Below are positions 1 through 26,500 of a DNA stretch of 32,233 bases, piece after piece. The translations under genes and the position numbers were made by a program. The DNA is from a virus. The DNA lies in the IMG/VR virus record IMGVR_UViG_3300020183_000289, positions 1 to 32,233 of that record; one strand, written 5' to 3'. The number at the start of each line of letters is the position of its first letter. Position 1 is the stretch's first letter. Below the pieces are notes generated by a model. It was not told the DNA's origin. It worked only from the letters and a program-made list of their open reading frames with translations, and searched no databases.

Positions 1-1296
1 CACTAGTGCTCCAGAGGCATATGCAGAGGGCCAGACGCTATATCTTGACTTGACCTTATAGTAACAGGCATCCTTTGTGCCACTACCTTTACCCTTTCTG
101 TCCGATTCTTCGTTCATTTCTCCACTATCAACGTAATCTGCTGCTGTATCTATGTAGTCAGCGGCTTTTGTGATCTTTGATTGTACCCATGCTTCTACGT
201 TTCCTTCACCTTTTGCCATTTTTTTTCTCAGTCTCTTGGCAGCACCAATTATTGTAGATAGTTCTGAACGAGCCATAGAATACTCGTGATCCCTTGTCTT
301 TGACACTGTTGGGCACTCCTCATTTCCGTGACATGGGCAGTATGTGCCCTTTTTAGTGTGGTTGCAAAGTTTTTTCTCAATCAGTCCTACTAAATCAGTT
401 TCTTCTTTACGTGTTTTTCTTTTCTGTCTTTTTTTCCTTGGTGAATCAGTTGAGACATAAGTTGGACTTGCAGCACCAGTTTTTGCCTGTTGTCCAGGAT
501 CTGCTGCCTTCTTTCTTCTTGCGGCAGATAGTCTTTCTGCCTTTGTCATACTTGCTCTCTTTGCAGAAGAGACGCACTTAGGAGTTCCTTCTCCTGGTTC
601 ATCACTCGCACACGTGCCACCTGTTACGACATTAACCCAACCACCTTTACCATCCTTTGATTTGGACTTGCCAAACCAGTCACGAAGACCTTCTTCAGAT
701 ATATCAGAACCATTTCCATTTCCATTAGAACCATTTCCTTCAGAATCATCTTCTTTATCAAGCATACCATCACGACCTATCATATATCCAGCAGGAATTG
801 GTTTACACTTTTTATCTGTATAGCAATAATAGTTTCCTGATTTGCACCTATTTTTCTTTTTTTCCTCATTCATTTCTTCTGTTTTCTTTTTCATTGAGTT
901 AATAAATTTTCTAAAAATAGCAGCTTCAGAAGTCTTTCCCATCACTCTTGCTCTTTGTTCCATAGCAATTGCTGCTTGAATTTTGTGAGCATGAGATCTT
1001 CCAGAGTTTCTTATTTTTGAAACACTTTCTTTTGCAGTTGCAACATCCTTAAATCCCAATCCATGAATTGTTCCTTTCGGATCTTCATCTGTATAGAGAT
1101 CAGAGTGTTTATCAGATTTGTTTGGTTGTCCTGGTTTTTTGGGTATGCGAGGATTATTCATTTCATTGAACGGTGATTTTGATTTAGTCTCTTCACCCTT
1201 TGCTCTTTTTTTGCGAGCAGCACAATGAGCTTTCTGAGAAAATCCACTAGGATTATCACAGTTTATTGATCTTTTATATTTGTTAGACCAACTCAT
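1..1296 (-). CDS. Patchwork cyanophage protein, probably virion-associated (partial, C-terminus off window)
   Basis: An open frame of 432 codons with no stop before the window edge, starting at the ATG 4 bases after the gp16 stop. I do not know its function. It is a string of short modules that recur in cyanomyovirus proteins: GFSQKAHCAARKKR (residues 18-31), a segment with GLGFKDVATAKESV and SHAHKIQAAIAMEQRA (about 77-134), YYCYTDKKCKPIPAGYM (about 156-172), a Gly/Asn/Ser linker (186-197), a LRDWFGKSKS...GGTCASDEPGEGTPKC segment (204-241) that resembles a viral domain of unknown function (DUF5872/DUF6321-like, from memory), a Cys/His cluster (C311, H313, C320, C322, H323, C328), EAWVQSKITKAADYIDTAAD, and DACYYKVKSRYSVWPSAYA from residue 409. 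The protein is strongly basic. Its place after gp16, where the large terminase gp17 would be expected, suggests a late protein, but packaging, capsid or DNA-binding roles are all open. The reading frame is sure; the role is not. Confidence 0.85.
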   Translation of the reverse strand, partial: MSWSNKYKRSINCDNPSGFSQKAHCAARKKRAKGEETKSKSPFNEMNNPRIPKKPGQPNKSDKHSDLYTDEDPKGTIHGLGFKDVATAKESVSKIRNSGRSHAHKIQAAIAMEQRARVMGKTSEAAIFRKFINSMKKKTEEMNEEKKKNRCKSGNYYCYTDKKCKPIPAGYMIGRDGMLDKEDDSEGNGSNGNGNGSDISEEGLRDWFGKSKSKDGKGGWVNVVTGGTCASDEPGEGTPKCVSSAKRASMTKAERLSAARRKKAADPGQQAKTGAASPTYVSTDSPRKKRQKRKTRKEETDLVGLIEKKLCNHTKKGTYCPCHGNEECPTVSKTRDHEYSMARSELSTIIGAAKRLRKKMAKGEGNVEAWVQSKITKAADYIDTAADYVDSGEMNEESDRKGKGSGTKDACYYKVKSRYSVWPSAYASGALV

Positions 1297-1300
1297 TTTA

Positions 1301-1753
1301 TTAAGAATCTTCTTTATTATTTAGAAAACCTTGCTTTAGTAGTTTTGATAATTCAGCAGTGGACCCAACAAATAGAGCAGTATTATTAACTGTGTTGGTT
1401 GTCTTTGTTGATGTCTCTTCAACATCTTTTAATTTTTTCTGAAGATCCATCAATTTATCACTTACATCTCCAACACTTTTTATGAGTTGTCCTGCAACTT
1501 CATAAGCTCGTGGTGAATCACTTTCACCAGCAAGTTCTAAAATTCCATTGATAGCTTCTTGACCTTTTTCTATTAGAGAGTAAAGATTAGCCCTTGTATA
1601 TTCATAATCTTTTTCAATATCAACTGAATTTTTACTTTTTTCTATAGTAGTTATTTCATCAACAACATCAATTTCCAAAGACTCTGGATTAACCTCTACA
1701 ATATCACAGTCCGTATTAAGAACCTTATCTATGGCATCAAAATTTTTATTCAT
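1301..1753 (-). CDS. 16: Small terminase subunit (T4 gp16-like)
   Basis: A 150-aa protein, close to the length of T4 gp16 (164 aa). In T4 the small terminase forms a ring that recognises the DNA and stimulates the large terminase gp17 during packaging into the prohead. The central part (about residues 48-115: DYEYTRANLYSLIEKGQEAI, PRAYEVAGQLIKSV, DKLMDLQKKLKD) is the predicted helical, coiled-coil core characteristic of cyanophage gp16. The acidic N-terminus (about 1-45) is variable in the family. The gene follows gp15 with a 9-base gap and has no evident Shine-Dalgarno sequence, so translational coupling is likely. A 16-bp perfect palindrome covers its start codon. Order gp13-gp14-gp15-gp16 supports the assignment. 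Confidence 0.88.
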   Translation of the reverse strand: MNKNFDAIDKVLNTDCDIVEVNPESLEIDVVDEITTIEKSKNSVDIEKDYEYTRANLYSLIEKGQEAINGILELAGESDSPRAYEVAGQLIKSVGDVSDKLMDLQKKLKDVEETSTKTTNTVNNTALFVGSTAELSKLLKQGFLNNKEDS

Positions 1754-5361: not shown

Positions 5362-5560
5362 TTATCAACTCCATCAATAAGGACTTAATTTCATTAACAT
5401 CATTTTTTAAGTTTTCGATTTCTTGTTTTTGTGAGAGTTTTTGTGCCTCCTTCAAATTTTTATTACTTATATAATTTTGATATCCTGTATCATTACAATT
5501 CAATATAGCACCTGTGTTTTCATCCCGATATAAATCAGGGTGTCCTTTTACTGGTATCAT
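5342..5560 (-). CDS. 72-aa small protein with C-terminal coiled coil
   Basis: Starts MIPVKGHPDLYRDENTGAIL, a compact N-terminal motif (GHPDLYRD..TGAI) that recurs in small proteins of T4-like marine phages next to tail genes. The second half (about residues 36-68: LKEAQKLSQKQEIENLKNDV, then NEIKSLLMELI) has heptad-like spacing and should form a coiled coil. Its ATG overlaps the stop of the 2446-aa gene (ATGA), which implies coupled translation and suggests a role with that tail protein, for example as an assembly helper or small structural subunit. The function is unknown. Confidence 0.8.
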   Translation of the reverse strand: MIPVKGHPDLYRDENTGAILNCNDTGYQNYISNKNLKEAQKLSQKQEIENLKNDVNEIKSLLMELINESRRN

Positions 5561-8500
5561 GCTAATGCAATCGCCCTAAGGTCTTTAATGATTGGATAAT
5601 AAACCTGATTTGTTCCTGCAAAGATAATTTTAATTGTAAATCCAGTAAACGGTCCAATGTCAGAGGCAGTATATTGATATTCCTTAAATTCACCATTTAA
5701 ACTAGATGCAACTTTAAAATCAGATAATCCGTTATTCTTAGATGGATCTATAACATCAAGGAAACCATCTTGATCATTATCGATAGTTAAGTTATCATAT
5801 CCTGGGAATAACTCAAAAGATTGTTCGACTTCACTTGAATCTGGTCTAATCAAATTATAAAGAACTCTAATATCTGCAGACGAGTGTTTGAAGGTTGATA
5901 ATATAACTCTTAAACTTGAAGATGGTTGCTCAAGAAGAATGGTATTTGAAACATAATAAGCAGCATTAGGATCATCAGTTAGTGAATTTACTCTTGGGTC
6001 TAAATCATAATTTGTAACTGGATTATTAAATCTAGCACTTCTAAACTCACTAAAGCAATTATTCACAAAAACTAACGGTGACAATATTGGATTAGTGGTA
6101 GATAATGTCAAGGCGGTAATCAAAGATTTATTTCTTGGCATGGCGCTTAAATATTCGGTTTCATTAACTTTTGAACACACTATTCTTGCTGAAGTCAGTA
6201 AATTTTCTCTGTTTATTGAGACATCCTCAAAACCTTGATCTACAAACGATACTTCATTTCCATCAACACTTGTTCCACTTACTGTTCTTATTTTTGCAGT
6301 AATTCCAGTAGAAGTTCCTGGGATAATATTTTCATATGCTGGAACAATAGAAGTATAAAGGAGATTTTTAGTTGCAGTAACTTCATCTCCACCAAATGAC
6401 CCATTAGATTCAAAATTGACCATAGGACTACTTGGGAGAGTGGCATTCAAACTATCTTTATCACTAGATCTATCAACAGAGCCGCTTACAAGTCTTTCAA
6501 CTTGAATATAATAATTATCAATATCAACACCAAGAGAACTAATACTGTGAGTTTTATTAATTCTTCTCAGAGAAATACCATTTAATTCATATTTGTAAAT
6601 AAGCGAACCCAGATTATGAGGAACAGCTATTGTTGAATCTATACCTCTAGTTATTCCACTGATTGTGCCAGTTGCATCTACAGATTCATACTTAACAATT
6701 TCATTATCAATTTTTATATATCCTGGGTTTAAGGCAGATACACGATGACCTTCAAAACTACCAAAGTTAGTTGTGCTTCCAGCAGAAACTGAAATTGACG
6801 TTGACGATATTGTTAATGGTGAAATTATCTTAACAGGTGGAACAGTGCTTTTTGCATTGTTTATTGTAATCTTATTATTCAATGCATACATTCCATGTCC
6901 TAATTGATCAATTGCGATTACATTTCCAGAACTTAACGAATTAAGAACACTAGAACTAGTGAATAATGTTGATGCCCAGGAGACTCTTACATTGCTATCA
7001 TTATAATAGATAAGATTAGAAGATCCATCTGTAGTGAAACCCTCTCCGATAAAGTTTCCTAAGTATAGAGTATCAACAAAACTGGCAGCGTTAACTGTAA
7101 GTTGGGCTCCAGTTCCAGTGTTTGTACTAACAGAACTGGTCACAATGCCAACAACATCCCCTTGTTGATATCCACTTCCCGATGAAACAACACTAACGGC
7201 ACTTATTCCACCTACAGAGTCTGTTGTTATACCAAGAACCAATCCAGTCCCATTACCTGTTATTGATATTGTGTTGACTGATGCATCACTAGTATACCTA
7301 GTTCCTGCTGTTGAAATTGCAACTGAAGATACCGAGGATCCAACACCAGTTATGTATCCAAAAGTGAAATCATTTTTACTCTGTCCAATCTTTCTACCAA
7401 CATTTAGTTGTGCTATAGCGGCACTATCTGTTACAGTGCTTATACCAACTTTTAGAGATCTTGAAATAGTTCTTAGTGGATTTTTTGATAGTGTATCAAC
7501 ATATCCATTACTTGGATCAAGTGTTGTATTTTGGAAAAATGCAGTTCCAGATGATGCTGTAAAATTAGCTTTATAAAGCTTGAATTTCATATCTTGATAA
7601 TCATTTGGTGTCCATTCAGAACCATTTTGAGATTTGTAAAGTCTTCCAATAGCAAATTGCCTTGTATACCTTACATTTTCTGCCCCACCAACAGATGCAG
7701 CGTTGACGGTATTTTCCCCCATTTCTGCAATCCAAACTTCATATTGATCACTTTCTGGCGCTAATAAAACAACTGCATATTGATTTCCTGGTTCTAAGAA
7801 AATTGGATATGGGAAAGTAAATTTAGTGGCAACGCTAGCATCAGTAGAAGTATTAACCTGACTTGGATTTAATGTCACTGGTTCTCCAAGAATTGTTCTC
7901 GTCGGTGTTCCCAATTCTATAGTTCTGATTTCGCAAGTAACTGGAGCATTTCTTGGATCTTTTTTTGCAAAAAATACATCAACCGCAGTCAAAAATGCTC
8001 CATTAACATCTTCACTTTGATTTATTGCACTTGGTGCTTCTATATTACCACCAACAACAAATGATTGTGCTAAAGGATCATAAAAATTTGTTCTAGTCGT
8101 TACATTATTAATTACTAAGGTTCTAACATTAGTTCTAGTAGTGGTTTGAGTTTCAATTCTTCGATAGTACTCAATAGTTCCCTCCGAAACGTAATTAGTT
8201 TCTCCAGATGAAATAAAAGTACTTCCTGGTAGTGGAGACTCATTTGTTGGACTAGAAGATAGTTTGAATGTTTTAGTCCCAGCGGTAATTCTCACTGTTG
8301 GGGTTGGGGTTTGATTTGGATTTTCTAGGAAAAATGATCCAACTACGGATCCAAAATTATCCGCAATTAGTTTTAGATCTTTTACATATGCAATTGCTCC
8401 GCTAGTTTGACCTACAAGAACTGCTCCTTTTTTTAGATATCCTGAATATTTTCCTTGCGCTTCTTGTGATAGTGAAAAAGTATCTATGTTAAGAATTTTT

Positions 8501-11500
8501 GATGATTGGCTATACTCAATAGGCACAATCTCAGAAGTAATATAAGGATTCTGAGTATAAATTTGATCTGGATTTGAAAATAATCCAGATTTATGATTTG
8601 ATTTCGCAACTCTAAAACTTATAATATTTTTATCATCATATCTACCAATAACAGTTTCACCTACAGTGAATGCAGCAGATGCTCCGTAATTAGATAATGA
8701 TGCATCAATTGCTATCTCCAACAATTTAGGTATGAAATGCACTCCGCTACTGCCATCCAAAAATTGATAATATCTTTCATTTGGCCTTAAGTTTACTGCA
8801 GAAAATTCAACATTTCTAGACCTCATAAATGTTTCTGGTGCTGTTGATTCTAATCCATTAATAACCACACTAGCCACATCAACTTCTTGAGAATTTTCTA
8901 CAGATAAACTTTGAGATGTAGAAACATCTGTCTGTCCTGCTCTTCTAGGGTTTGGAACCCTAGATTCAATAGTGTTGAAGTTTTCTCTCACATCAGTTCT
9001 TGTTCTGGTATTGGTTACAAAAACTCTTCTATCTGGTAATTGTATTGTTCTAACCCAACTATCCCTTTGTGGTGATAATGTAATTTTTCCAGCATACACT
9101 ACAACGTGGAATGGATTGACATTTTCAACTTTTGTTGCTAATTTTTGCTCAATCCACCCAATACTTTCATATTTCAGTGTTACTACATTTCCAGTTTTTT
9201 GAACATTTTCGTCCAATAGCGCAAAATTAGTAGATAAATCTAAGTTTTCATCTGTAATTTGTTCTGCTGGTATAATTTGATTAGCAAGACTATTTTTAGA
9301 AATAAATGGTGTCAATACCTTGAGATTTTCATTAACTTCTACCCTTGACACTCTACGATTTAGTCTAGAATTATCTTTGAAATCATCAACAAAAAATCCT
9401 GTTCTAAATCTATCTGTATTATTGGCATCTCGTATTTGTAAAGTTGATGTATTCAATTCTAATAGAGACAAGGATGTTACCTTTTCTAAATTTTGAACTC
9501 TACCTTCAATTTTTCCAATATCTCTCATAGTATATCTTCTATTATCAACTAAAGAGAATTTTATGTCCCTGTGTGAATAAAGATATGGTGGAAGAAATAT
9601 TGTTGCTAATTCCATTACATCATCAGCAATAATTGGTGGTTTTGGATCTCTAGAAGAGGTACCTTTTTCTACAATAAATTCACCTAGTTTATTCAAGTAA
9701 ATCTTATCAATTCTTGGTAGATAATAACTATAACCAATAATAGTGGATTCTCCAGGAGATGCAATTACTTTTAATGATGATGAAAAATTTCTAGCCTCAA
9801 AGGCAAATGGTGATGTAGTAATTCCAGAAAATACATCAACATAAGGTCTAAAATCTATAGTATCAGATGCTCTAATAGATTGATTTTCTATAACAGGAAT
9901 ATCCTTTCCATAATCACCACCACTATTTGCATAACTAAGAACTGTAAACGCATGACCATTATCAGATGATGGAACTGAATAATAATCAAATATTATTGTT
10001 AATCTTCTAGATGGTTCAAAACCACCTGGATTTCTTTTTATTCTAGCATAATCATAATATTGACTTCTTTGCCCCTTATCTAACGTATAGTTATTAGTTA
10101 TATCTGTGTATGAACCTAAAAGAACGGTTTTTATATCAGTTGTAATTTTAGACTGCGTAAATGTTACTATTTCACCCTCAAGAAATCTTTCTTGATTTAA
10201 GTAAACAAATTCAACATTATTTGGCGATCCAGCTGGTTTAGAAACAATTCTAGCTATAGCTCCACTAGTGGCACCAATAATATTTTCACCAATTATAACA
10301 TTTGTTGTAACATTTATAATTACAGAAAACGATAATTGATCGAGAACTGGTGAAGAATTATCTAGGGATTCTAAAATAGCAACAACATTTGTTACATCTG
10401 GATAATTTAAGGAGATTTCATCGTCTTGAACTCTTAGTCCATAAAATTTATTATAGGTCAATCCATCATTTATGTTATTTCCTGCCGTTGTTCCAGATCC
10501 AACATATTTTGATCTAGTTACATTTAATACTTGACTTCTATTAAGATTTTTTATTTTAGTAACAATCGATGGTTTTATAAAAGATGCCGTTACTGCATCC
10601 ACAGTTTTTCCAACTGTAAGTCCGCTGAAAGATACTTGGTTAAGATTCAAATTAAATTTATCTGAAGTAAGTGTCTCTACAGTTCCATCACTATAAGTAA
10701 TAGAATATCGTTCTACATCAAAAGGTTGAAATAAAGCACCAACTAAATTAGTTGGGAGATTAAAATCATTTACACTCAATGATAATGTGGCTACACTAAG
10801 TGTAGTGTTTAGATTAGCTTGGGCTGTAAATGATAGCACAGAATTATTAAGATTTATACTTTCTATACTATTATTAGGTAATATGGAAAAAAGATATCCA
10901 TTCTTTTCATTTATTATTTTAGGTGAAATAATACTAAATGGACTTGAAATTGTTGTTGTAGAAATTCCACCATCACATACATTACTTACCGAAAGAACAG
11001 TTGCTACTCCAATGGATCTTCCATCTGGAGATATTGAAAGTATAGAATTGAATGTAGGTAGAGTAAATCCTGGTCTAGAATATCTAACTATATCTCCAAC
11101 TTTTAATCCAGAAAAAAGTTTACCATTAGCAGTTATAGTTGCTGGAACAATGGTCGTTCCTGCGATTGATACAAATTCATTTCCAGAAAATCCCCTTACA
11201 GGTTGTGTGAATAATTCCGTATCTGCAGTAAATGGCGCTGAATATCCAGAGATAGAAGTTGGTTGTATTACGGATTTTATATCTTTAGTGTTATATGCTC
11301 TGACTGTCTTAATACTACGGACGGTTGTAGTATTTCCATTGATTAATATTTGTTCTCCAGATATAAAAGTTCCCGAAGTTTGTGACAAGTAGATAATCAC
11401 TCCACTTCCAGCGGATACTGAATATCCGCTTGCACCACTACTCATTCCCTTAATATAAGCAGATATTGGAACTTCGGATGCGTTAACAGATGAATTTAAT

Positions 11501-12897
11501 TCAATTGATGTATATGTTTGAATATCGAATAAGTACAAATCCCAAGATGAACTAGGAGACAAGTATGGGGCATCCGTTAGATTATGATTATATACTCTCG
11601 CATATCCTATTGTAGTACCAGCGGCTACGCTGTCACCAGTTTTTCTTGCATCCTGCAAATAAATCACATTTTTTTGTAGGGGACTTCCATAAACATTGTT
11701 TATTCTAATCAAATTTCCCATTTCAAACGGAACTAGGGATGAAGGAACTACTTCAGTATCTCTAGGTTTCTCAACATCTATGATTGTAGATCCTATTCTT
11801 TCAATATCGTATCCTCTAACGTAAGCTTTTCCTGGAGAAAGTTTTATGCACATCAAATCATCTGATGGCTTGTTTCCAGATTCTGTTTTTTCGGTATCGA
11901 AAAATAATCCATCATTTCCTAATCTGTCATTTAGAGATTCATGAGCAGATATTTGAAATGGTTCAACAGTGTAATTACCAGACTCATCATAAGTTCTCTG
12001 TGCTAGATAATCCTTAAGAATATTATATTGTGTTTTATTCTCTACTTTTTGTAATTTTCCTTTTTTTACCCTTAAGATTTCAATAAAATCAGTATCATCT
12101 AAATCATCTAAAGATTTTTTAGTTAACGTAGTTGAAATTTTTAATCTATCTGCTCCAGGAGCTGCAAAGTTTGTAAATCCCTTTGCATTATCATATAAAG
12201 AAGAATCATCCTTAGAAGATGTAATTTCCTCAGACACTTTTAGTCCAATTCTATATGAAGAATTATTGATATATGGATCTAAAACTAAAGTTTGTTTATT
12301 TACCCTTACAAAAGTTCCTCTGATAAAATAAATCCCATCACTGATTGAAACTGCTGATCCAATTGAACTAGCATCATTAGAAATTAATGTGGAAAATATT
12401 GTTCCTGCATTGATAACTGTATTTCCATACGTAATATCTTCAGTACAATATAATTCTTCACCATCAAGAAATAAATTGAATTCGTTATTACTATCCGAAC
12501 TAATATACTTAACGAAAATAGTTGGGAACTCAATATTGATTTGGTTAGGTAATTCAATTGATTGAATTACTGCACTTATTCCTGAAGCTTGCCCTATGAT
12601 TGTTTTATTAATGAATTTGTCAAGGTATTCTGAAATTGGAATCCCAAAATTTAGAGAGTTTAATTTTACAGAGAAGAAATTATTGTCATAAGTCGTGCTT
12701 CCTGGGATAACAATAGAACCTTCCTTAAATATATTACTACCAAAAGTTTCAATCTGATTTTGTAAAATAGATTGTAAAGTATTTAACTCTCTAGTCTGTA
12801 TTGGTCTTCCTGGATTAAAAAGAACCTTATAATAATTTTTAGATGGATCAAAGTCATCAAAATATGGAGTTACATTTAGATTTGTTTTTTGAGCCAT
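5557..12897 (-). CDS. Giant tail/baseplate protein with DUF4815-like N-terminus (2446 aa)
   Basis: The N-terminus (about 1-90: LNVTPYFDDFDPSKNYYKVL, PIQTRELNTLQSILQNQIE, FGSNIFKEGS) is the hallmark of DUF4815-type structural proteins of T4-like marine phages. Further regions seen: GQTSGA-type beta units near the N-terminus, around residue 470 and near 880 and 1490; a conserved tail-protein block around 1600-1730 (DPLAQSFVVGG, then VFFAKKDPRNAPVTCEIRTI, FPYPIFLEPGNQYAVVLLAP); GxGY-type repeats around 1840-1920; an IKIDNEIVKYESV...TRGI unit around 2065; a calcium-loop-like DNDQDGFLD at 2373-2381; and a C-terminal block (EYQYTASDIGPFTGFTIKII, KDLRAIALA) common to this family. It starts 3 bases after the gp8 stop. 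It occupies the place of T4 gp9-gp12, so a baseplate-rim or fibre-attachment role is inferred. No enzymatic motif was seen. Confidence 0.88.
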   Translation of the reverse strand: MAQKTNLNVTPYFDDFDPSKNYYKVLFNPGRPIQTRELNTLQSILQNQIETFGSNIFKEGSIVIPGSTTYDNNFFSVKLNSLNFGIPISEYLDKFINKTIIGQASGISAVIQSIELPNQINIEFPTIFVKYISSDSNNEFNLFLDGEELYCTEDITYGNTVINAGTIFSTLISNDASSIGSAVSISDGIYFIRGTFVRVNKQTLVLDPYINNSSYRIGLKVSEEITSSKDDSSLYDNAKGFTNFAAPGADRLKISTTLTKKSLDDLDDTDFIEILRVKKGKLQKVENKTQYNILKDYLAQRTYDESGNYTVEPFQISAHESLNDRLGNDGLFFDTEKTESGNKPSDDLMCIKLSPGKAYVRGYDIERIGSTIIDVEKPRDTEVVPSSLVPFEMGNLIRINNVYGSPLQKNVIYLQDARKTGDSVAAGTTIGYARVYNHNLTDAPYLSPSSSWDLYLFDIQTYTSIELNSSVNASEVPISAYIKGMSSGASGYSVSAGSGVIIYLSQTSGTFISGEQILINGNTTTVRSIKTVRAYNTKDIKSVIQPTSISGYSAPFTADTELFTQPVRGFSGNEFVSIAGTTIVPATITANGKLFSGLKVGDIVRYSRPGFTLPTFNSILSISPDGRSIGVATVLSVSNVCDGGISTTTISSPFSIISPKIINEKNGYLFSILPNNSIESINLNNSVLSFTAQANLNTTLSVATLSLSVNDFNLPTNLVGALFQPFDVERYSITYSDGTVETLTSDKFNLNLNQVSFSGLTVGKTVDAVTASFIKPSIVTKIKNLNRSQVLNVTRSKYVGSGTTAGNNINDGLTYNKFYGLRVQDDEISLNYPDVTNVVAILESLDNSSPVLDQLSFSVIINVTTNVIIGENIIGATSGAIARIVSKPAGSPNNVEFVYLNQERFLEGEIVTFTQSKITTDIKTVLLGSYTDITNNYTLDKGQRSQYYDYARIKRNPGGFEPSRRLTIIFDYYSVPSSDNGHAFTVLSYANSGGDYGKDIPVIENQSIRASDTIDFRPYVDVFSGITTSPFAFEARNFSSSLKVIASPGESTIIGYSYYLPRIDKIYLNKLGEFIVEKGTSSRDPKPPIIADDVMELATIFLPPYLYSHRDIKFSLVDNRRYTMRDIGKIEGRVQNLEKVTSLSLLELNTSTLQIRDANNTDRFRTGFFVDDFKDNSRLNRRVSRVEVNENLKVLTPFISKNSLANQIIPAEQITDENLDLSTNFALLDENVQKTGNVVTLKYESIGWIEQKLATKVENVNPFHVVVYAGKITLSPQRDSWVRTIQLPDRRVFVTNTRTRTDVRENFNTIESRVPNPRRAGQTDVSTSQSLSVENSQEVDVASVVINGLESTAPETFMRSRNVEFSAVNLRPNERYYQFLDGSSGVHFIPKLLEIAIDASLSNYGASAAFTVGETVIGRYDDKNIISFRVAKSNHKSGLFSNPDQIYTQNPYITSEIVPIEYSQSSKILNIDTFSLSQEAQGKYSGYLKKGAVLVGQTSGAIAYVKDLKLIADNFGSVVGSFFLENPNQTPTPTVRITAGTKTFKLSSSPTNESPLPGSTFISSGETNYVSEGTIEYYRRIETQTTTRTNVRTLVINNVTTRTNFYDPLAQSFVVGGNIEAPSAINQSEDVNGAFLTAVDVFFAKKDPRNAPVTCEIRTIELGTPTRTILGEPVTLNPSQVNTSTDASVATKFTFPYPIFLEPGNQYAVVLLAPESDQYEVWIAEMGENTVNAASVGGAENVRYTRQFAIGRLYKSQNGSEWTPNDYQDMKFKLYKANFTASSGTAFFQNTTLDPSNGYVDTLSKNPLRTISRSLKVGISTVTDSAAIAQLNVGRKIGQSKNDFTFGYITGVGSSVSSVAISTAGTRYTSDASVNTISITGNGTGLVLGITTDSVGGISAVSVVSSGSGYQQGDVVGIVTSSVSTNTGTGAQLTVNAASFVDTLYLGNFIGEGFTTDGSSNLIYYNDSNVRVSWASTLFTSSSVLNSLSSGNVIAIDQLGHGMYALNNKITINNAKSTVPPVKIISPLTISSTSISVSAGSTTNFGSFEGHRVSALNPGYIKIDNEIVKYESVDATGTISGITRGIDSTIAVPHNLGSLIYKYELNGISLRRINKTHSISSLGVDIDNYYIQVERLVSGSVDRSSDKDSLNATLPSSPMVNFESNGSFGGDEVTATKNLLYTSIVPAYENIIPGTSTGITAKIRTVSGTSVDGNEVSFVDQGFEDVSINRENLLTSARIVCSKVNETEYLSAMPRNKSLITALTLSTTNPILSPLVFVNNCFSEFRSARFNNPVTNYDLDPRVNSLTDDPNAAYYVSNTILLEQPSSSLRVILSTFKHSSADIRVLYNLIRPDSSEVEQSFELFPGYDNLTIDNDQDGFLDVIDPSKNNGLSDFKVASSLNGEFKEYQYTASDIGPFTGFTIKIIFAGTNQVYYPIIKDLRAIALA

Positions 12898-14513: not shown

Positions 14514-14521
14514 TATTTATA
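14514..14521 (-). promoter_or_regulatory. T4-type late promoter box upstream of gp8
   Basis: TATAAATA on the minus strand, an exact match to the T4 late consensus. It overlaps the TAA stop codon of the 4491-aa gene and lies 17 bases before the gp8 ATG, which would leave a leader of only about 10 bases if the start site is at the usual distance. The leader contains a run of A and no Shine-Dalgarno. Confidence 0.75.
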
Positions 14522-17500
14522 TTGATTTTGTAAGTCCACCAGTATCTCTCAATCCAGTATCTCTTCTTTGAATGATTGGATATGTACTTAATCCAGAAGT
14601 AACTGTTTTTCCAGTAACCCCTATAGAAATTGGACTTGATGATCTCGTAAAGGCAGAAATTCTACCCCAAGTAAATCTTCCCGCTGGATTATTGAATGTC
14701 CCAGTAGTCACTATACCAACAACGCTAGTATTAGATTTGATGTTACATGTTGCAATTCCAGTTACTGAATCAAATGCATGTATGTAATAAATGTTATCCA
14801 GACAAGTTGTGCCAATTCCAATAATACTATCATCATGAGTATCAACAGAAGTTACTCCATTTCCAACTCTAGTATCGGTAATGTAAAGTGGGAATCCAGT
14901 TGTTAGTGTTGGGAATGTCAAAGGATCTCTAGATAAAGTAAATTTGAGTGCCAATGGAACGCCAATTCCAGTAGTAGTTGCAATGCCAACAATTTTACCA
15001 TCGTAACCATTCACAAGTTGTGCTTTTTTGATGAAATCAATAGATTCTTTGGGCAGTGAAACAATGACTTGAGGAGGCGCTGTATAAGTATATCCAAAAC
15101 CTGAGTTTGTAATTTGTGCTGTTGTTACAGAACCATTTACAATGGTAATAGATGCTGTTGCACTAGTACCGATTCCAACACCAATTCTCTTTGGTCGAGA
15201 TATTTTTATAGTTGCTGAAGTTGACAATCCACTACCATTTTGGTTGATAATTAATGATTGTATTGTTCCTGCTATAGAAACAAGGGCAGTTATTCCAGCA
15301 GAAACGGGATCATTATATTGATCGAGAATCACTGCACCAAATTCTGTTGGATTTTTTCCCTCATAATTGAAGAAATCAGCATTATCAACAAATAACACAG
15401 ATGAACTGGAACTAAGATCCTTAATTATTCTCGCCGCTGGATATATTTGAGTTTCTATAGAGTCTCTTGTTTTTGGAATTATAGTATTATTGATAAACAA
15501 ATCTGATTTTTGTTTAGTCCAAGCTAATGGACGTAAACGTGAAGCATCAATTCCATTTCCAAGATAAAGGTTTGTTTCTATCTTATCAGAAGCAACGATA
15601 TCAATAATTGTTCTTTTATCTTGTGAAACTGTATTTTGCAAATCTGTATTACTAGAGATAATCTGAACTTGATCTCCTGGTTTTATTGTTTCGACAACAT
15701 TAACAGATACTGAATCCTCATTAGCTGTGCCAAGATAGAAAAATACAGAAATATTATCTTCTGGTTTTGGTGGGAAATTGAAGACGAATGATGTTCCACC
15801 ATCAAATGTGTATGCTTTTTTGGGTTCTTGTATAGCACCATTGATAAAAATTACTAGTAGCGCGTCAAAATCAATTAATTGAGAATCTAAATCATTGGCA
15901 TTTGTTTCAAAACTTAGAAGTTGATTTTTGTAAAATAATGGGAATCTTGTTCTTACACCATCTTGATAATTCTTAATTGAATCAATGTAATTGAGCTCAC
16001 CAAATTGCCAAGATGCAAAACTATCATTGTAAATATCAACAACAGTAAGTTCAAATGGAACCAGAGGTTCTGCAAGTCCCTTGGCAGTCACTAGTCCTAC
16101 TGGTCTAAATTTATCACCCCTTCTAAATCCATATCCAGGTCTCTTAATTTTGAATCCACTAATTTCAAATACTGAACCAGCAACACCCACTTTACTTTGT
16201 GGTAAAGTTCCCAAACCAATTGCGTTAGTTACAATACCAACAAGAGATCCAATTGCAGAAGCGATATCTGCACAATCATTTGAATTATAAACTCCAGCAA
16301 CTCCAGAAACATCTCCTGTAATCGTTAGATCAAAGTTTTGTGGTAGTGATGAATGTTCTGAAATGATAATTGAAGTTGTGATAGCGACTGAATTTAGAGA
16401 TAATTTATCAATAAAAATAGTTCCAATTCCAATGGAGGAAATTTTGGTATCGTATTGAATGACGTTTGGTAATGATCTAACTTGTTTATTAATTGTAAGA
16501 CCAGTAGTATCAATACCAGTTATACTTGTCGTTGTAATACCAATGGTCGCTGATACAGAGTTACCAACACCAATATTTTTCATCACATCAATTGCGAAAT
16601 CTCTTGCTTTATCATAAGCAAAAACTGATTGTTCCTCTTCGCCAGCAAGATATCCGTTATCAATATAGATTTTTCCAGCATCATATACTTTGTTATTTCC
16701 ACCAAACTGTAAGTTGAATGCAAGAGATTCAAGAACTAATTGAATATCGTCTGTGCAATTTTGATTTCCCCCTGGAATAGAGAATCCAGGGAAAGCTTGT
16801 AATGTTTCACCAACTGCTTCCTCTGCAATTAATAGTTTGTTTGCCTTAATCAATGTAGCAGCATCGGCAGCTTTATTAGAAACACTGATAGGATCTCTAT
16901 CAGATACACCAACCTCAAGATCTAGTAAAAGACCTATTCCAGTTTCTGTAGTGGTTCCAATACCAACCCTAAATGTGCCCTCTACGCTTACATTATCATA
17001 ACATGGGGGTCGAACAAATATTGTTGGAGAAACATAACCACTACCACCACTAACTACGTTGAATGTCAATGTCCCACCAGCACCAACAGTTGCAGTAATA
17101 GATGCTGCGGTTCCAGTATGGGATGGATCTGTAATAGCAACCGAAACTTGACCATTATAACCAGATCCAAAACTACCTGATTGTTGTACTTGTGTTCTTG
17201 TCGATGGTAAAGTTCCAAGTCCAATCGCATTGGTTACAATACCAACTAGAGAACCTATAGAAGAAGAAATATCAGCACAATCATTAGAATTATAAACTCC
17301 AGCAACTCCAGAAACATCTCCTGTAATTGTCAGGTCAAAATATTGTGGTAAAGTTGAATATTGTGAAATGATAATTGAAGTTGTGATAGCGACTGAATTT
17401 AAAGATACTTTATTGATAAAAATACTTCCAATTCCAATAGAAGAAATTTTGGTATCGTATTGAATTAGATTTGGTAAAGATCTTACTTGTTTTCCAATGG

Positions 17501-20500
17501 ATAATCCTGATGTATTGATACCAGTTATCATTGTTGTTGTAATACCAATGGTCGCTGATGTTGATGTTCCAATACCAATATTTTTCATTGACAAAATTGC
17601 CAAATCTCTAGCTTGTTGGAATGCATATATGCTTTCATCTTCTTCGCCAGACAAATAAGTATTAGTAATATAAAGTAGACCAGCATCATAAGTTAGATCA
17701 TTTGCTCCGTATTGTAAATTATGTGATACGGATTCTAAAACGTTTACAATATCATCCTCACAAGATATGTTACCACCAGGAACAGCAAATCCAGGATATG
17801 CGCTCAGCATTATTCCAACAGATTCTTCAGCGATTAATCTCTTATTCTGAAGTATTACTCTAGATGCATCTGCAGCCTTGTTAGAAACGACTAGAGGGGG
17901 GGTTTCAATACTTGTGATAGTACCTAGTCCACTTAGTCGTGCAACGACATTAGCGCCGACTAGAGGGGCATATCCAACCCCAACTGTAGATCCTATAGAA
18001 ACGATAACTCCACCTCTAGGAAGTTGATTTTTATTGATATCAAAATCTGAAATAATCAGGTTACCATTTGTATCTGTTATTCCACTGAATATTACACTTG
18101 TAAATCCAGCTACAGCAACAACTTCAATAATTGCAAAATTATTATTTAAGTTATTTTCTGTCGTTGGTGCTTGGAATATACTGTTAATGAATACGATTCC
18201 ATTTCCACCAGTTGTTCCCAATCCAACAGTATTGATTCCTTGTGCCGTTAAGGTAAATGTTGCACCAATACCAGTGAATTTTTCAGTGATACTGTCATAT
18301 ACCTGATTTGTAGCATAATTTTTTCTCAAGAAAACTCTACCAGAGAACGATGCCTTATCCCTAGTAAGATTTCTTTCATCTTTATCAGATACAAAGAATC
18401 CAGCACCTCTTGGAGGATCTGTAAAGTGAATTTTATTTTTTACAATATTATACGATCCTCTGTAAATTCTTGAAGTAGTCGCTGATGTATGACTTGTAGC
18501 CGCAGTCCCAACAGATCCTCTCTTAACTTCTATTAGTGGAAAACTGCCTGTAAATGTAATTGGGCCAATACTAGAAGTTCCTAATCCAACATTAGTAACG
18601 AATAAATATTCATCATCTATTCTTACAAGATCTTTTGGATTAACACTAGAGATTCCACTTAGTGGAAATACTGTATCGCCAGCACCAACATTTTGTGTTA
18701 AAGTGAAAGCTAAGTCAGAATATGCCAGTGGATACTGTACTAAATTATTCAAAGTAATGATGGTTTTTTCATTTTTTTTGAACATTTCAAATAAATGAGC
18801 ATTACCACCACCTATAGATGTAAATGTTACTGCGATACCAGAATCAGCATATTGTTTTCTACTTGCTATTCTAAATTCATCATTATTGTCCTTAATTGCA
18901 TATACTTTAGACGGTAACACAGTTGTTGATACTCCAGTCCAGTCAAGTGTAGAGACAATATCAAATGCAGTTGCTGCTACACCTAAAAATGTTGAGGTTG
19001 GTTGGTAAATTAATTCCTCTCCCGTGCTGAAGAAATGATTTGTGACCTTAAATACACCAGTTTGTAAATTGAAAACAGTTGTATCTGAAGGATCAATTGT
19101 TTTCATAAAAATGGGAACACCATTGTAATTTGTTTCAAATTGTGTTACATTTAGTTCATCTGAATTCAATCCAAATGCCCTCTTAATCCCAACAGAATCT
19201 CTGACAGATCCATAATCTAATTTTGGTGGTGTATTAACTTCATCGGTGGTTTCATATATTTGTTCGCTAAATGATAGTATCTTAATACTTGTTGTTATTC
19301 CAGAATCAGGATAAAATTCTAGTATTACATCATTACCATTGAAAATTCCTCCAAAAGATCCAATTCCTAGAGGTTGATTTGGTGATAAAAATGGATATTG
19401 TGTTGTAAAAATATTATTTTTATCATGAACTAAAAGAACTTGATGCAAAGTATTAGTATTTCCTAATCCAACTTGCACTGTTGCTTTTATGGAACTGAAT
19501 AGATTTTTATCAAAAGAAAGAACTGTCGCAGTAGTAACTCCTGCTGTACTAATAGTGCAATTTGTTTTGTAAATCGCTGTTCTTTCTGCTCCAGATGGTT
19601 GTCCAGATAACTTAAATCTATGCACTCCATCTATTCCAACAGAAGTGCTTCCAAATCCAACAGATCTTCCAATAATTTTTACTCCATCTGTAAATGTATT
19701 GTAAAAATCAAATTTTAGAAGATTACCCGAAACGTATGATGTAAATATTCCAATCGGCGTAGTACTAGATTCATTATTTGTAGAATCAAAATAAAGTTCT
19801 GAAAGGAATGAATTATTTCCATCATGTGTTACATATACCTCCACATAGTTCATAGTATTATTTGTATCACATACAACTGCAAAATTACCATAAAATGATG
19901 TAAGAGTATCTTTATTCAAAGATAAAATATTTGTTGTAGTTCCAATACCTATATTAGTATTTGATGAAAGTAACTTAACGAATGCAATATCAGTAGATCC
20001 TACTCCCACAGAAAGTCCTGTGTATTCGCTTTGGAGATACTTTATGTTGTAATTTGTATTGAGTAAATCTTGTGCATCAAATCTTACGTATATTTCTTTA
20101 CTTATTTCATCAATATCTCCATAAAAATCTCCCACTAATACATCATTATTTGATATATTACCTTTTTTCAAATTAAAGACTGAATTAGAATCATTGAGAA
20201 CAACTAATTCATTAAGTTCAACAGTTTTTCCATAGACATCGGTGCTATCTACGATTGTTTGAATTAAGAATCTATTAAGTCTCCGAGTGTTGTCTAACTC
20301 TGCAACAACTGAATAATTTGGTTTAAGATCTTCAAGACTAGAAAATTCGTCACTAATATCATCGACTGTTAGAACCCTATTGCTTCTTACTTCAACGTAA
20401 TCAGAAAGATTTAGATTATCAAACTTAATAAATTTAGATCTTAATGGAGTTGACTGTACGTCTACATCAGTGTCTGAAACTAATTCAAAATTATTGATAG

Positions 20501-23500
20501 TATCAACTCGTCTTTCATCAATAAAATCGTTAATAATTAGAGTTTCAGATTCTGGAGCGGCACCCGTATATCCTATTCCATTAAATTGAACAGACTTAAG
20601 TAATTCAGTATCTGCAAAATTTTTGAGTCCAACTGAATGAACTAATCTATTCACTGGTGTTACTATTTGATTCCATTCTTTTGGACTTTTTACTGAATAT
20701 GAAAGATTTTGATAATAATCATTATCAGACAATACTTGAGAATCTTCACTCAATTTGCCCGTTTCATCGCTCCAACCAATTCTTTCTTCTTTAGATGCCC
20801 CGACACTAAATGTTCCAGTTGTTTTTTTGACTGTGTTTATGCTTGCAATACTATTAGACTCAAATCCTTTGATGATATCACCAACTTTTACTATTGTTCT
20901 ACCTATTAATCTAATAAAGTTAGTGCTAGAAGCAGATACAACTAGGTCTGTACTCTCAAATCCAAACCCACTATTAACATAAATCTTTTCACCAACAAAG
21001 AAATCTAAATGTTTTTGCAAAACAGAAAATCTGGGATAATTATCGTACTTAATAATTGACGCATACGCATCTTGCACAGTTTTTGCAATTCCTGGATTTG
21101 TGGTAACTCCAGAAACATTAAATTCAAGTTTTCCAGGATTAGTAGGATAATAATTAGCAACAGTGAAGAAGTTATATCCATAATCAGATGAATTAAATCC
21201 TGTTCCATCGACTCCAGATTTTTGTATACCTTCAACCCAAATAAGATCTCCAGATGCAAATGGATCTGTTCCAAATCCAGCTAAAGGAGTGCTCAGTATA
21301 CATGTAACAATTCCAGATGATGAACTCTCTACTAAACTTATAGAAACTCCATTAGAATTATTTACTGTTCTTAGTGTAACTGGAATTGCTGGTAAACCAG
21401 TGGGTTTGCTTAGTATTTGTACTGATTCAACTGTTGAACCTCTTAGTTTGGATCTTAAATCTCCACTATTAATTACATCTCTTGAATCTGTATCAATAAT
21501 TACTACTTCTGGAGGTGTAATATAATTTGTTCCACCAAATTCTACATCTATATTTGTAATAGTATTAGAAGACTCAATTGAGACAACTTGTGGAAATAAT
21601 GCTGTTGGTCTAAGAGTGACATCTGAGGCATAATCAAATCCAGAGTTTATAATTCTTAATTCATTTACTTTTCCTATTGAATTTGATTTTGCAACTATAT
21701 AAGCACCTACACCACCATCTGTTTTTTTATTCCCCACAAATCTAGGCAATTCTTTATAAGTTGCTGTAGAAGAAATTTTTATTTTAGAAATTCCACCAAT
21801 AGCAGATACAGACTTAGTAGAGTATACTAATGTATCACATTGACTTTGATTATAAGTAAGACTCTCTGGATAATTTTTTATTGTTATTGCAAAAGTAGTA
21901 GTGCCAACTCCATAAACAGCATAAGAACCAGAATACTCACTATCAACAAATTTTATTTGATTAGCATCAATAACATCTTTATCTGACGTGCTAATATATC
22001 CACTTTTTTCTAAATTGTAATACAATCTTTCTGGTAGATCATCAGAATATCTTACAGTTAAGGAGGCAAAAGTTGATACACCAATGGTTCCAACTCCAGA
22101 AACAATAAAATTATCTGTTTTTGCAACTGATACAAATTTTTTACTAAAGTTTTCATTATGAAAAATATTGAAGTCAAATCCCACTAATGAAACGTGAGAC
22201 AAATCAAAAACTAAATCAGTATTTTTTGTTACTTTTATTTCTGGATTTATAAGACTAATCTCTTGAGTATTACCACCAAGAGACTGAGTGTTTATGACTT
22301 CACCATTAGTAGAGACAGAATCGTTATATGATTCACAAAGACTTACTACATTATTGTTAATTTTTTTAATAAAATAAACATTATCATCAAGTAAACCAAC
22401 AGGTGCATTTCCATTACCAGTATAATGAACTTTATCCCCTGACTTAAGATTGTGATTAGGGAGTGTAATAGTATCATTTTCTGTGCTAATTCCTAATGTG
22501 CTAAATCCAAGAGGATTTACTAATAATAATCCTTTTGTAGAATTATATCTTATTATTGTAGATGTAGTGACACTAGTTGTTCCAAATCCAACTGGTAAAG
22601 AACTTGTTTTGATATTCGGTTTTACATTAAGAGTTACAATATCACCATCTTTCAACTTACTGGAATTTGCTGTTGATACTGTAGTTTTGAATTGGTTAAT
22701 TAATGCTGTTTCTTGAGAGTATTGAGAGGTAAATGAATATTCATAATTAGCACTTCCATTTGATAGGAAATATACTCCTCCACCACTTGATATTCCAGCA
22801 ATGTCAGTAGAAATACCAATTAAATCTTTTGATTTATTGATTATATAAACTGAAGGAGTATTAGAAACTGAAAAGAATTGAAAAGATGGTGTTCCAGTTA
22901 TACTGGGTGAATAAGTTATATCACTAGTGCTTGCAGGTCTACTAAAAGTTACTCTATCTCCAGTCTTAAATGGATGATCTGGAAGGTATATACTTTGAGT
23001 AGGTATAGAAACAGTATATTGCGTATCCCCTATATTGTAAGATTTACTTATCGTTGTCCCAGGTGTGGTTCCAACACCAACCGATAAAATTGGATTGAAA
23101 TAAACTACATCATTTAAGGTTGATGAAAAACGTTGTACTTTTTTCGGAATAGTAAAAGAATCTGGAATAAAATATATCGGAGTTGGAGATGTATGTGAAG
23201 TCGCTATTCCAGAATACCGTTTTACCCTAATAAAACTACTAAAAATATTTAATACGGTTAGTATTTCAGATTCTATTTTTATACTACTCCCAATAGAGAT
23301 ATTGGACGGAATATTAGAAACCGAAATATCTGTGTGTATTCCTGTAGAAGCATAAGTGCCTATATCTTCAGATAATATTGAAGTATAAGTTGTTAGTCCA
23401 ATCCTATAAGTTCCACTGATTTTTGACAGGGATGTACTGACTCCTGAAATAGTAATTTTATCTTCATTTATAAAATTGTGATTTGGTGTAATTGTTACTT

Positions 23501-26500
23501 TTACACTATTACCATTTTCCCAAGTTAGTTTTGCATTTTCATATGTAACTGAAGTAGTGGCTATACTTGTGATGGTCTCACCCTCAACCTCAGTAATCTC
23601 TACAACAAGATCTTCTGACTTACTTGTGGAAAATAAAAGTTGATCCCCAACTTTATAGTTATTTCCCGAACTAACAATATCAAAACCATCTACATTTCCA
23701 GAAAATACTGACTCAATAATGGTTTTTTGATTTACAATCTCATTAGACTCAATAATAAAATCATTACCAGCATAATTATCACCAATTTTATATGGATGCG
23801 TATTTCTTATTAGATTGCTAGCATTAAAATCAAAAGATTGATCTAATAAAGTCTCTTCTGGATTATAATATGATCTATAATGATTACCAATGAAGTATGG
23901 AAATCTACCCACATACTGTCCAGATGGATTCTGTTCTACAGTAGCAAAATATGCATAAACCCCCTTTGGAAATTCAGGAGTTTTACAATATCTTCCATTA
24001 TATTCATCTAAATCACCATTTTCAGTATATCTATAATCTTCAATAAAAAATCCAGAGCTAAATCCAACAGGTCTATTTTCTACATTAGTTGCACTATAAG
24101 AATATCCAGGTATCATCAATCTTACACTTGAATTAAGATTACTTGGATCATCATGTCCATATGGGCCATATATTGGATTTCCGTCATAGGACCATCCAAT
24201 AATAGGAGAATGATTCACTCCATTATCATTGAAATAATTAATTAAATACTGATTATATCCAACAACATAGTATTGTAGATTACTTTTACTTGATAAAACA
24301 ATATCACTAGCGGGAGATCTATATAATGTGTCTTGAATACCATATTCGTATGAACTATTAACAGTAAGTTCCCTAATTCTAGAATCAAATTTTGCATTTT
24401 GACCCGCAGATTTCACCAAGATTGATGTATCAGTTGTAGAGTATCCAAAACCTGGATTTACCACTATTACACTACTAATTTTTTCATTTTGAACAATAGC
24501 TCTTAGTGTACATCCACTCCCCGATCCATTAACTATTATATCAGGAACAGAAAAATATTCTTGTCCTCCATATTGAACTTGTACATCGATAATTTGACTA
24601 TTTACAATAATTGGGCTCAATTGTGCAAATTTTCCATTTCTGACTATTATTTTTGGATTATTATTTACATTTATAATACTAGAACCATAATTAGATCCAT
24701 TTTCGTATAGATAAACATCCGTTATTTTACCTCGAACAACAGGTGTTGCTGTGATACTACCCTTTACTGGTAGAGTTGTTCCTATACCAATTGATGAAAA
24801 ATTAACTGATAATGAAAGTTCTGGATATGAAAATATTTGATATCCTGCTGCAGTTGAAACTCCTGTAAATTGCACATATTTTCTTTTATTGTAATTTGTT
24901 TTATCTGTGCCTCCTATTCCAGCATCACAAATTCTAAAAGAATCATTATTCGTTTTTAATACATAATATTGCTTAGATGTAGATAAACCAGTTACGAGAG
25001 TTGATATTCCAGTTGTTAGATTTGGTTCATAATTATAATTAATTAAGTCACCATCTAAAAATCCATGATTCTTAAAATTAATTGAAAAATCTGTTGGAAG
25101 GATTTGATTAGGTTTTACAATTAATTTTCTATTTTGAAATCCACTTCCTGGTTCTATTACTTTTATTTCTGATAAGGTTTTTTTAGGTAGTGTCTTAAAT
25201 TTATGAATTCCAGTAGCATTTTCTGTGGTAAACCCAATAGTATTGATACCAGTAAAAACATCAATAGAACTATTATGTAATTTAATAGTTCTAATATTCA
25301 GTACTTTTGGATAATAAATTTCATTATTGAGTAATGTTTTATATTGTATAAAATTAGAACCATCAAAACTTCCTATTCCTATAGAAAGATTCAGGTTATT
25401 ATCATAAATTATCGGTTGCCCATCTACAAAACCATGATCAGATTCAAATGTTATTGTCTCAGAATCTGTATTTAAACCACCACCATCAGTAAAATTTCTT
25501 CCATCAAATAAAACCTCCCTTGTAAAAGTTTTTATAACAGGTTTAAACACTGCCCCGCTTCCGTTTCCACCACTATATCCAATAGATATTGAAACATCAA
25601 TATCAAAATCTTGTCTATCCACATAAACTTTTTCAATAGAACCACTAAGAACTGGTTGTAGTTTTGCTTCACCATAAGATAGATCTAATTTTGGTGGATT
25701 TAAGACATCAAAATTTTCCCCACCATTTAGGACCGTAACGCTATCTAGTGGACCATAATAAACTTTATCGTTAGTTTTATAATTGAAAATTTCAACTCCA
25801 TCTTTTAATATTCCTACAGGTCCAGGAATTGTGCTAATTTTATCATTAGATCCAATATCTGGATTTACTCTTATTTTTCTAAAAATACTTTGTGGAGATA
25901 TTAAGTCTTCTTTTTGATCGTAAAGTATAAATTGATGTGTTCCAGGTGGTATAATTTTTTGTTCATCACCAAGGAAAACAACATCGGATGTTCCCACAAA
26001 TGATAGTGATGAATAAAGTTTTATTGATTTTTTATTCGATAAGACCTCAACAAAATATGATGTTTCTGAGGTCAATCCAATAATTGGATTCCCCGAACAT
26101 TGATAGTAAACTCTATGACCTGATATAAAAGATACTTCATTTGCAAAATCAATTGCGCTCGATTTTCCTTCATCTGGATCAAATCCAGACAATGAAACTG
26201 GATTATACTTAAATGTTTTTGTTTCTATTGCGTAAGATGGTAGAGAATTTGCAGCAACATAAAGATTATCTATAAAACTATCATCTTCACTTGTATCAGA
26301 ATAAACATTTTGAACATCTGAAAGTACATTTGGAGAAAATTCCAGAGGTATAAATGTTGAACTAGATTTCTTTAGTTTTCTCCTAAGATCATATTCTAAT
26401 GCAGTTGTTCCTAATCCAACGCATGAAGTATCTAACGTAATTTCTTTGCCTACAATGTCTACGATTCCTACATTTTGATATCCATTCACTATATTTTGAC

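Follow-up and report, generated by a model that had tools for sequence, protein, structure and literature searches.

In bacteriophage T4, the internal proteins IPI, IPII and IPIII as well as Alt carry a capsid-targeting sequence and are cleaved by the prohead protease gp21, which cuts after L/I-x-E and also splits three core proteins, among them the scaffold protein gp22, into several pieces (PMC9026906). As described there, residues 4 and 7 of the targeting sequence matter for targeting and residues 8 and 10 for processing, and processing of IPIII is inhibited when the cleavage position is occupied by Asp; IPII and IPIII both start with MKTYQEFIAE/A (here and below, a slash marks the cut or presumed cut). 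The interval between gp16 and gp17 of cyanophages has been described as a hot-spot where genes are inserted (PMC3037559). A gene found there, T4-GC119, is common in cyanophages, and no role of it was recorded in the literature searched.

The modular gene behind gp16

The window (the whole stretch of 32,233 nucleotides that was analysed) begins with an intact T4-GC119-type ORF on the minus strand (1..1296), which comprises 432 codons without a stop and is open at base 1. It starts 4 bp after gp16, the terminase small subunit (1301..1753, minus strand; Pfam PF11053, E 4.3e-9; PHROG terminase small subunit, E 1.1e-50), and encodes a protein with 87 K/R versus 55 D/E and a pI of 9.6, which confirms the basic patchwork protein described directly after gp16 in an earlier note on this DNA. 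Because the IMG/VR record of the virus comprises no more than the window (32,233 bases), the 3' end of the gene lies beyond the readable sequence. Complete close relatives, whose ends are alike, measure 675 (L001), 716 (L019) and 751 aa (L025), and the C-terminal end of L025 is Pfam DUF6321. In all three, gp17 follows the modular gene, as the earlier note had wished to see checked, with one extra ORF of 92 aa in between in L019; a frame break, which that note had named as a possible objection, is seen neither within 1-1296 nor in the complete close relatives.

The protein SSM2_109 of phage S-SM2, a member of the cyanophage cluster T4-GC119, shares 72% identity with the window protein over 80% of the query, in five pieces. 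Judged by this similarity and by its place, directly after gp16 and with gp17 next in relatives, the window gene can be assigned to T4-GC119. Family members occupy 25 of 30 gp16-gp17 intervals and are missing from five, in contigs that were found through gp17, also hold gp16 and were picked by closeness to the gp17 of L025 and not by the module protein; thus, the gene is common in cyanophages. The suggestion that this is a site where genes are inserted agrees with the published hot-spot between gp16 and gp17 (PMC3037559). T4-GC119 precedes gp16 in P-SSM2 (L174), and in P-SSM4 (L185) it is separate from the terminase genes, with the T4-GC190 cytidylyltransferase nearby. The same late-gene run of the window includes ORFs of 4491 aa (14517-27992, minus strand) and 2446 aa (5557-12897). 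Besides, the labels of terminase large subunit and tail sheath are apparently swapped in the S-SRM01 record (MW015081.1, L167 9968-13929), where the gp17 match falls under the label 'tail sheath protein'.

At least five short modules had been proposed, and seven module cores were found in the window protein, at residues 6, 49, 151, 203, 311, 336 and 408. Module A (KYKRSINC..., residues 1-43; 1168..1296, minus strand as for all following modules; core at residue 6) recurs in 22 of 68 relatives. It is followed by module B (NPRIPKKPGQP..., residues 46-141; 874..1161; core at residue 49), module C with three Cys (CKSGNYYCYTDKKC, residues 145-183; 748..864; core at residue 151) and, after a Gly/Asn-rich linker, module D (GLRDWFGKSKSKDG..., residues 202-296; 409..693; core at residue 203). 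Module F1 (residues 308-333; 298..375) contains the Cys cluster C311-x8-C320-x-C322-x5-C328 and leads into module E (DHEYSMARSEL..., residues 334-393; 118..297; core at residue 336), and the start of module G (GSGTKDACYYKVKSRYSVWPSAYASGALV; 1..108; core at residue 408) is cut by the window edge.

The module combinations, which the earlier note had proposed to count in other cyanophages, are shuffled: 52 different orders occur among 68 full-length relatives when eleven module cores are searched, the core patterns being hand-written after inspection of the relatives and the set being reduced from 91 to 68 by dropping near-identical proteins (4-mer overlap >= 0.7). The commonest modules are D (57), G (55) and H (50), and three of the 68 relatives feature none of the eleven cores. 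Module B reaches a mean column identity of 92% over 23 copies. The SNWR motif, considered as a possible internal targeting signal, occurs in 27 copies, with a variable spacing to the next [LIMV]-x-E (7 at 6, 6 at 8, 6 with none). Many modules are basic. The AlphaFold model of the 751-aa relative L025 has a mean pLDDT of 51, in which some helical stretches are predicted confidently and long linkers with low confidence, and module B alone gives a helical model (pLDDT 69) for which none of 212 matches was a PDB fold match at E <= 0.001 (best E 0.85). Likewise, the modular protein gave no PDB sequence match and no NCBIfam match, and no Pfam effector or peptidase domain was found in the window protein or L025; the Pfam matches were DUF6321 in L025 and DUF192 in L116. 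In S-CREM2, modules are split across separate virion proteins, ORF160 (L172) and ORF155 (L206), and the latter contains YSWREELSE, which resembles the SNWR motif of the family.

Cys 311, 320, 322 and 328 stand as the earlier note had given them, with His at 313, 323 and 337. A factor that binds zinc and acts with the terminase in packaging or maturation, as that note had hinted, would fit this Cys/His cluster as well as the adjoining gp16. However, clusters of this type are carried by 9 of 68 relatives, seven of which keep the spacing C-x8-C-x-C-x5-C, and the other 59 are without the module; S-SM2 and Bellamy feature the version C-x8-C-x2-H-x4-C. The cluster is thus a real but optional module and not the heart of the protein, and the objection that it might not be conserved applies in part, because it is optional. 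Moreover, P-SSM2 has the gene ahead of gp16, P-SSM4 has it far from the terminase genes, and several contigs have it beside gp23; five of 30 gp17-derived intervals have no member. A zinc-binding packaging factor is therefore rejected as the main role, on account of the optional Cys cluster, and is regarded as very improbable.

Excess of hydrophobic-x-Glu at module junctions

A hydrophobic-x-Glu pattern at the module junctions had gone unnoticed in the earlier note. For its analysis, fixed patterns located each internal module start, and from there the closest Glu run up to 14 residues upstream was taken, whatever precedes it, with P3 denoting the third residue before the presumed cut; repeated junction 11-mers were dropped before counting, and this first-Glu rule undercounts at Glu runs. 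Of the 246 distinct junctions in the discovery set, 191 had L, I, M or V at P3, whereas 500 draws of random places in the same proteins gave 0.22 on average and at most 0.289; strictly L or I was found at 94/246 (control 0.123). Likewise, Glu near a module core had L, I, M or V at P3 in 280 of 585 cases versus 444 of 2439 for Glu elsewhere (Fisher), whereby control figures and Fisher value are not strict probabilities, since the junctions are related by descent. The excess is carried by modules A (6/7), B (12/15), C (7/8), D (38/40), G (42/49), H (34/44), I (22/27) and F1 (6/8), and weaker junctions are those of module E (18/29, from 31 contexts including two without Glu), F2 (6/14), DUF192 (3/8), module L (1/2, from 14 contexts) and the SNWR motif (4/25).

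The identity of the P3 residue bears on two further explanations. M stands at P3 in 54, V in 43 and F in 12 of the 246 junctions. The frequent M could point to a recombination seam, i.e., a hot-spot at which former small genes were fused, with M-x-E at the junction as an old gene-start remnant that would be functionless in the protein. Consistent with this, some separate genes start with M-x-E right before module D (MNEEGLRDWF, MNEGNLHKWF, MKEGSLHKWF, MQEGNLHKWF), and the gp16-gp17 region is described as a hot-spot (PMC3037559). Nevertheless, L, V and I, which are no start remnants, together account for 137 of the 246 junctions, and the junction DNA words are diverse (144 distinct 9-mers of 214), so that the motif is not one copied DNA seam; such a seam is considered improbable. 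Alternatively, the protein could remain uncut, as a beads-on-a-string virion protein with a DNA-condensing or structural accessory function, in which hydrophobic-x-Glu would be the signature of flexible acidic linkers or helix ends. The enrichment of Glu itself near breakpoints (1.40x), the helical stretches and long low-confidence linkers of the L025 model and the many basic modules are in line with this explanation, which is nevertheless rather unlikely: the enrichment sits at P3 and P1 in a protease-like manner (KL 1.60 at P3 vs 0.34 at P4 and 0.71 at P2), and the motif also follows non-helical Gly/Asn linkers.

In the window protein, candidate protease sites on the minus strand are FNE45/ (1162..1170; F at P3, not canonical), MNE144/E (865..873), ISE201/E (694..702), LIE307/K (376..384) and MNE396/E (109..117). 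Each of the protein's five [LIMVF]-x-E sites closely precedes a module core (P 0.03 given the positions of its 30 Glu), which taken alone is weak because 16 of the 30 Glu lie just upstream of cores. The F1-E junction of the window protein has no hydrophobic-x-E. Module boundaries were also mapped by BLAST breakpoints, at whose starts [LIMV]-x-E was enriched 1.74x, whereas controls that were shifted or altered reached 1.0 to 1.6x; with this modest specificity, the approach was too blurred to decide and was rejected.

Fifteen loci from named phage records (L171-L185), which had not been used in forming the idea, served as a held-out set with 13 family ORFs and 41 junctions, 38 of which remained after removing those already in the first set. 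At P3, 18/38 of these have L, I, M or V (control 0.20, maximum 0.368 of 200 draws), whereas strict L/I was not significant in this set (8/38 vs 0.109, control maximum 0.263). A relaxed rule, devised after the held-out junctions had been seen, which admits any Glu of the run and F at P3, gave 26/38 (control 0.235, maximum 0.395). Thus, the wider hydrophobic class is significant in both sets, and the junction effect stands, yet it is smaller outside the discovery set and its residue preference is wider than that of T4.

The same class of motif is present in the major capsid protein gp23 of these phages. In all 34 readable sequences (36 ORFs, two of which were dropped as they are without the region), the last Glu before the conserved body start has L, M or I at P3 and is followed by A, Q, T, G or S. 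Judged by its place and by analogy to T4, this Glu is presumably the gp23 cutting site. V and F at P3 were not found among the 34 gp23 sites, although they are frequent at module junctions. In addition, proteins copying the mature N-terminal arm of gp23 were noticed (L081 5671-6099, L148 4033, L076 9516, L172 543-1436); in three of these small proteins the copied part stands right after [LI]-x-E. S-CREM2 gp160 matches the major head protein PHROG 696 (E 4.8e-10).

Relatives in virions and capsid-targeting-like N-termini

According to the mass spectrometry reported for S-CREM2 virions, ORF136, ORF137 and ORF160 were detected with 8, 4 and 7 unique peptides, respectively (PMC10665884). Module I forms the end of ORF137, and modules D, H and G are found in ORF160; a hydrophobic-x-E precedes each of them. 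The family member of S-SCSM1, a phage with a measured virion proteome (PMC9602691), is annotated as virion protein, and that of S-P4 as structural protein, T4 GC0119. The family is therefore likely present in virions, with support coming from relatives other than the phage of the window itself, whereby virion mass spectrometry reveals presence and not a position inside or outside of the head.

Among the 8390 distinct Met-started frames of the loci, 23 matched a targeting pattern fixed by positions 4, 7, 8 and 10 of the T4 sequence, compared to a mean of 0.23 and a maximum of 2 in 200 shuffled sets, many of the 23 matches being relatives of each other. Of 21 named cyanophage genomes, 11 contain the DNA form of the pattern, at 19 places in total, and none the reversed pattern. 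Module proteins with the start MKSLN[TLS]F[IL][NQ]E/G are encoded in six contigs (L045, L052, L054, L055, L074, L078), in five of which gp23 is the next labelled gene upstream. Within the window, the pattern had no match even with one mismatch; the window protein itself is without the N-terminal capsid-targeting sequence that is typical of the T4 internal proteins. A few of the 19 places in named genomes are short frames which may be due to chance (e.g., in Bellamy, 51 aa), and SSCSM1_30 features the targeting start, yet is annotated as hypothetical and not as virion protein.

Genes with the targeting pattern that are unrelated to the modular gene include the NMNAT/cytidylyltransferase of S-SM2, S-SCSM1, S-B43, P-SSM2 and DSL-LC02. 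Targeting-like starts of this enzyme, such as MKSFLQFLKE/A, MKSFFQFLSE/A and MKNFSSFLTE/A, were found in L189 (S-SCSM1 88819), L186, L191, L196, L201 and L206 (S-CREM2 ORF154). The S-SCSM1 enzyme is annotated as virion protein, and the cytidylyltransferase of S-CREM2, starting with MKNFSSFLTE/A, was detected in virions by mass spectrometry (PMC10665884). The recurrence of an NMNAT-like enzyme in cyanophage virions has been presented as a puzzle (PMC9602691), which the capsid-targeting-like N-terminus in several phages would explain. In the literature searched, to which subscription papers mostly did not belong, no statement of the cargo reading or of NMNAT targeting was found. Two further observations concern other genes. 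Adjoining the modular gene is a conserved ORF (phrog_1742), some 102 to 108 aa long, which starts with MKSF[KQ]QF[IL]SE/S (L083 6542, L086 7246, L089 7402, L093 6859, L167 8334 and others); in S-SCSM1 it bears no virion-protein label. Upstream of gp17 in L163 (187-1002), the start MKTFKQFIAE/AR precedes a glucosaminidase domain, and from its sequence this protein is possibly a lytic enzyme packed in the head.

Proposed head cargo and comparison with known systems

Junction signals like the sites of a head-maturing protease suggest a cargo that would be packed into the head and cut into pieces. Accordingly, the window gene is best read as a shuffled polyprotein of internal head cargo which gp21 would cut into its modules, a reading that is given a probability of about 0.55. 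From the motif, the position and the company of the gene we infer the location inside the head and the cutting at the junctions. The precursor would enter the prohead core alongside other internal proteins, and at its module junctions gp21 would cut behind hydrophobic-x-Glu, as expected for the major capsid protein. The cutting would release small, mostly basic and partly Cys-bearing modules, which would remain in the head with the DNA and would probably be delivered into the host together with it. By analogy to the T4 internal proteins, a role of the modules in host take-over, counter-defence or DNA binding appears likely, and their shuffling would serve an arms race, as in the case of those proteins.

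Several findings count against this reading, namely the null result for strict L/I in the held-out set, the absence of V and F from the gp23 sites, the weak junctions of E, F2, DUF192 and L, the siteless F1-E junction, the modest specificity at BLAST breakpoints, the missing targeting start of the window protein, the annotation of SSCSM1_30 as hypothetical and the P-SSM4 gene away from the terminase genes. As for the link to packaging or capsid maturation hinted at in the earlier note, the connection to the head gains support from the virion proteomics of relatives and from the protease-site and targeting motifs, whereas a connection to DNA packaging found none. In a wider and more tentative reading, which we hold at somewhat less than even odds, cyanophage heads may carry a rapidly reshuffled polyprotein, encoded by one gene as a cassette whose interchangeable modules act on the host or bind DNA and would be cut apart by gp21 in the head and co-injected. 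A T4-type signal would bring in other cargo, such as the virion NMNAT/cytidylyltransferase, a glucosaminidase and proteins that resemble the gp23 arm in their mature N-terminus. The cargo reading allows a direct test of what is injected along with cyanophage DNA.

The T4 internal proteins and Alt resemble the family in being basic proteins of the virion, with support from relatives in the case of T4-GC119, in an x-E cleavage motif, which is a candidate one in T4-GC119, and in the near-identical ten residues at the N-terminus of some family members and neighbours. Unlike the T4-GC119 protein, they are single proteins that lose a short propeptide, whereas the window gene strings shuffled modules together in one long ORF, with candidate sites in between and no N-terminal signal. 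The T4 core proteins gp22, gp67 and gp68, which gp21 cuts into several pieces (PMC9026906, PMC5694885), feature several protease motifs per chain, comparable to the candidate sites of the modular protein; no sequence match to the modules was seen, and their fragments are described as mostly leaving the head, unlike the fate proposed for the T4-GC119 modules. T4-GC119 itself (PMC3037559) is the same family as the window gene, with the same place and the same modules; the literature and GenBank notes consulted refer to it as hypothetical or structural protein and describe neither module shuffling nor a junction motif. Polyvalent proteins (PMC5512222) are reported to be likewise multidomain, often encoded near virion genes, variable in architecture and proposed to be processed. 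Still, they comprise large enzymatic domains with embedded peptidases (PMC5512222), whereas the window family consists of small modules that an outside protease would cut, and the window protein does not show the several effector or enzymatic domains with embedded peptidase that define them. Finally, the inner-body and ejection proteins of phiKZ and SPN3US are described as head proteins cut at a short x-E by a gp21-like protease (PMC5694885, PMC9026906); there propeptides are removed, whereas in the T4-GC119 family whole modules would be separated from each other.
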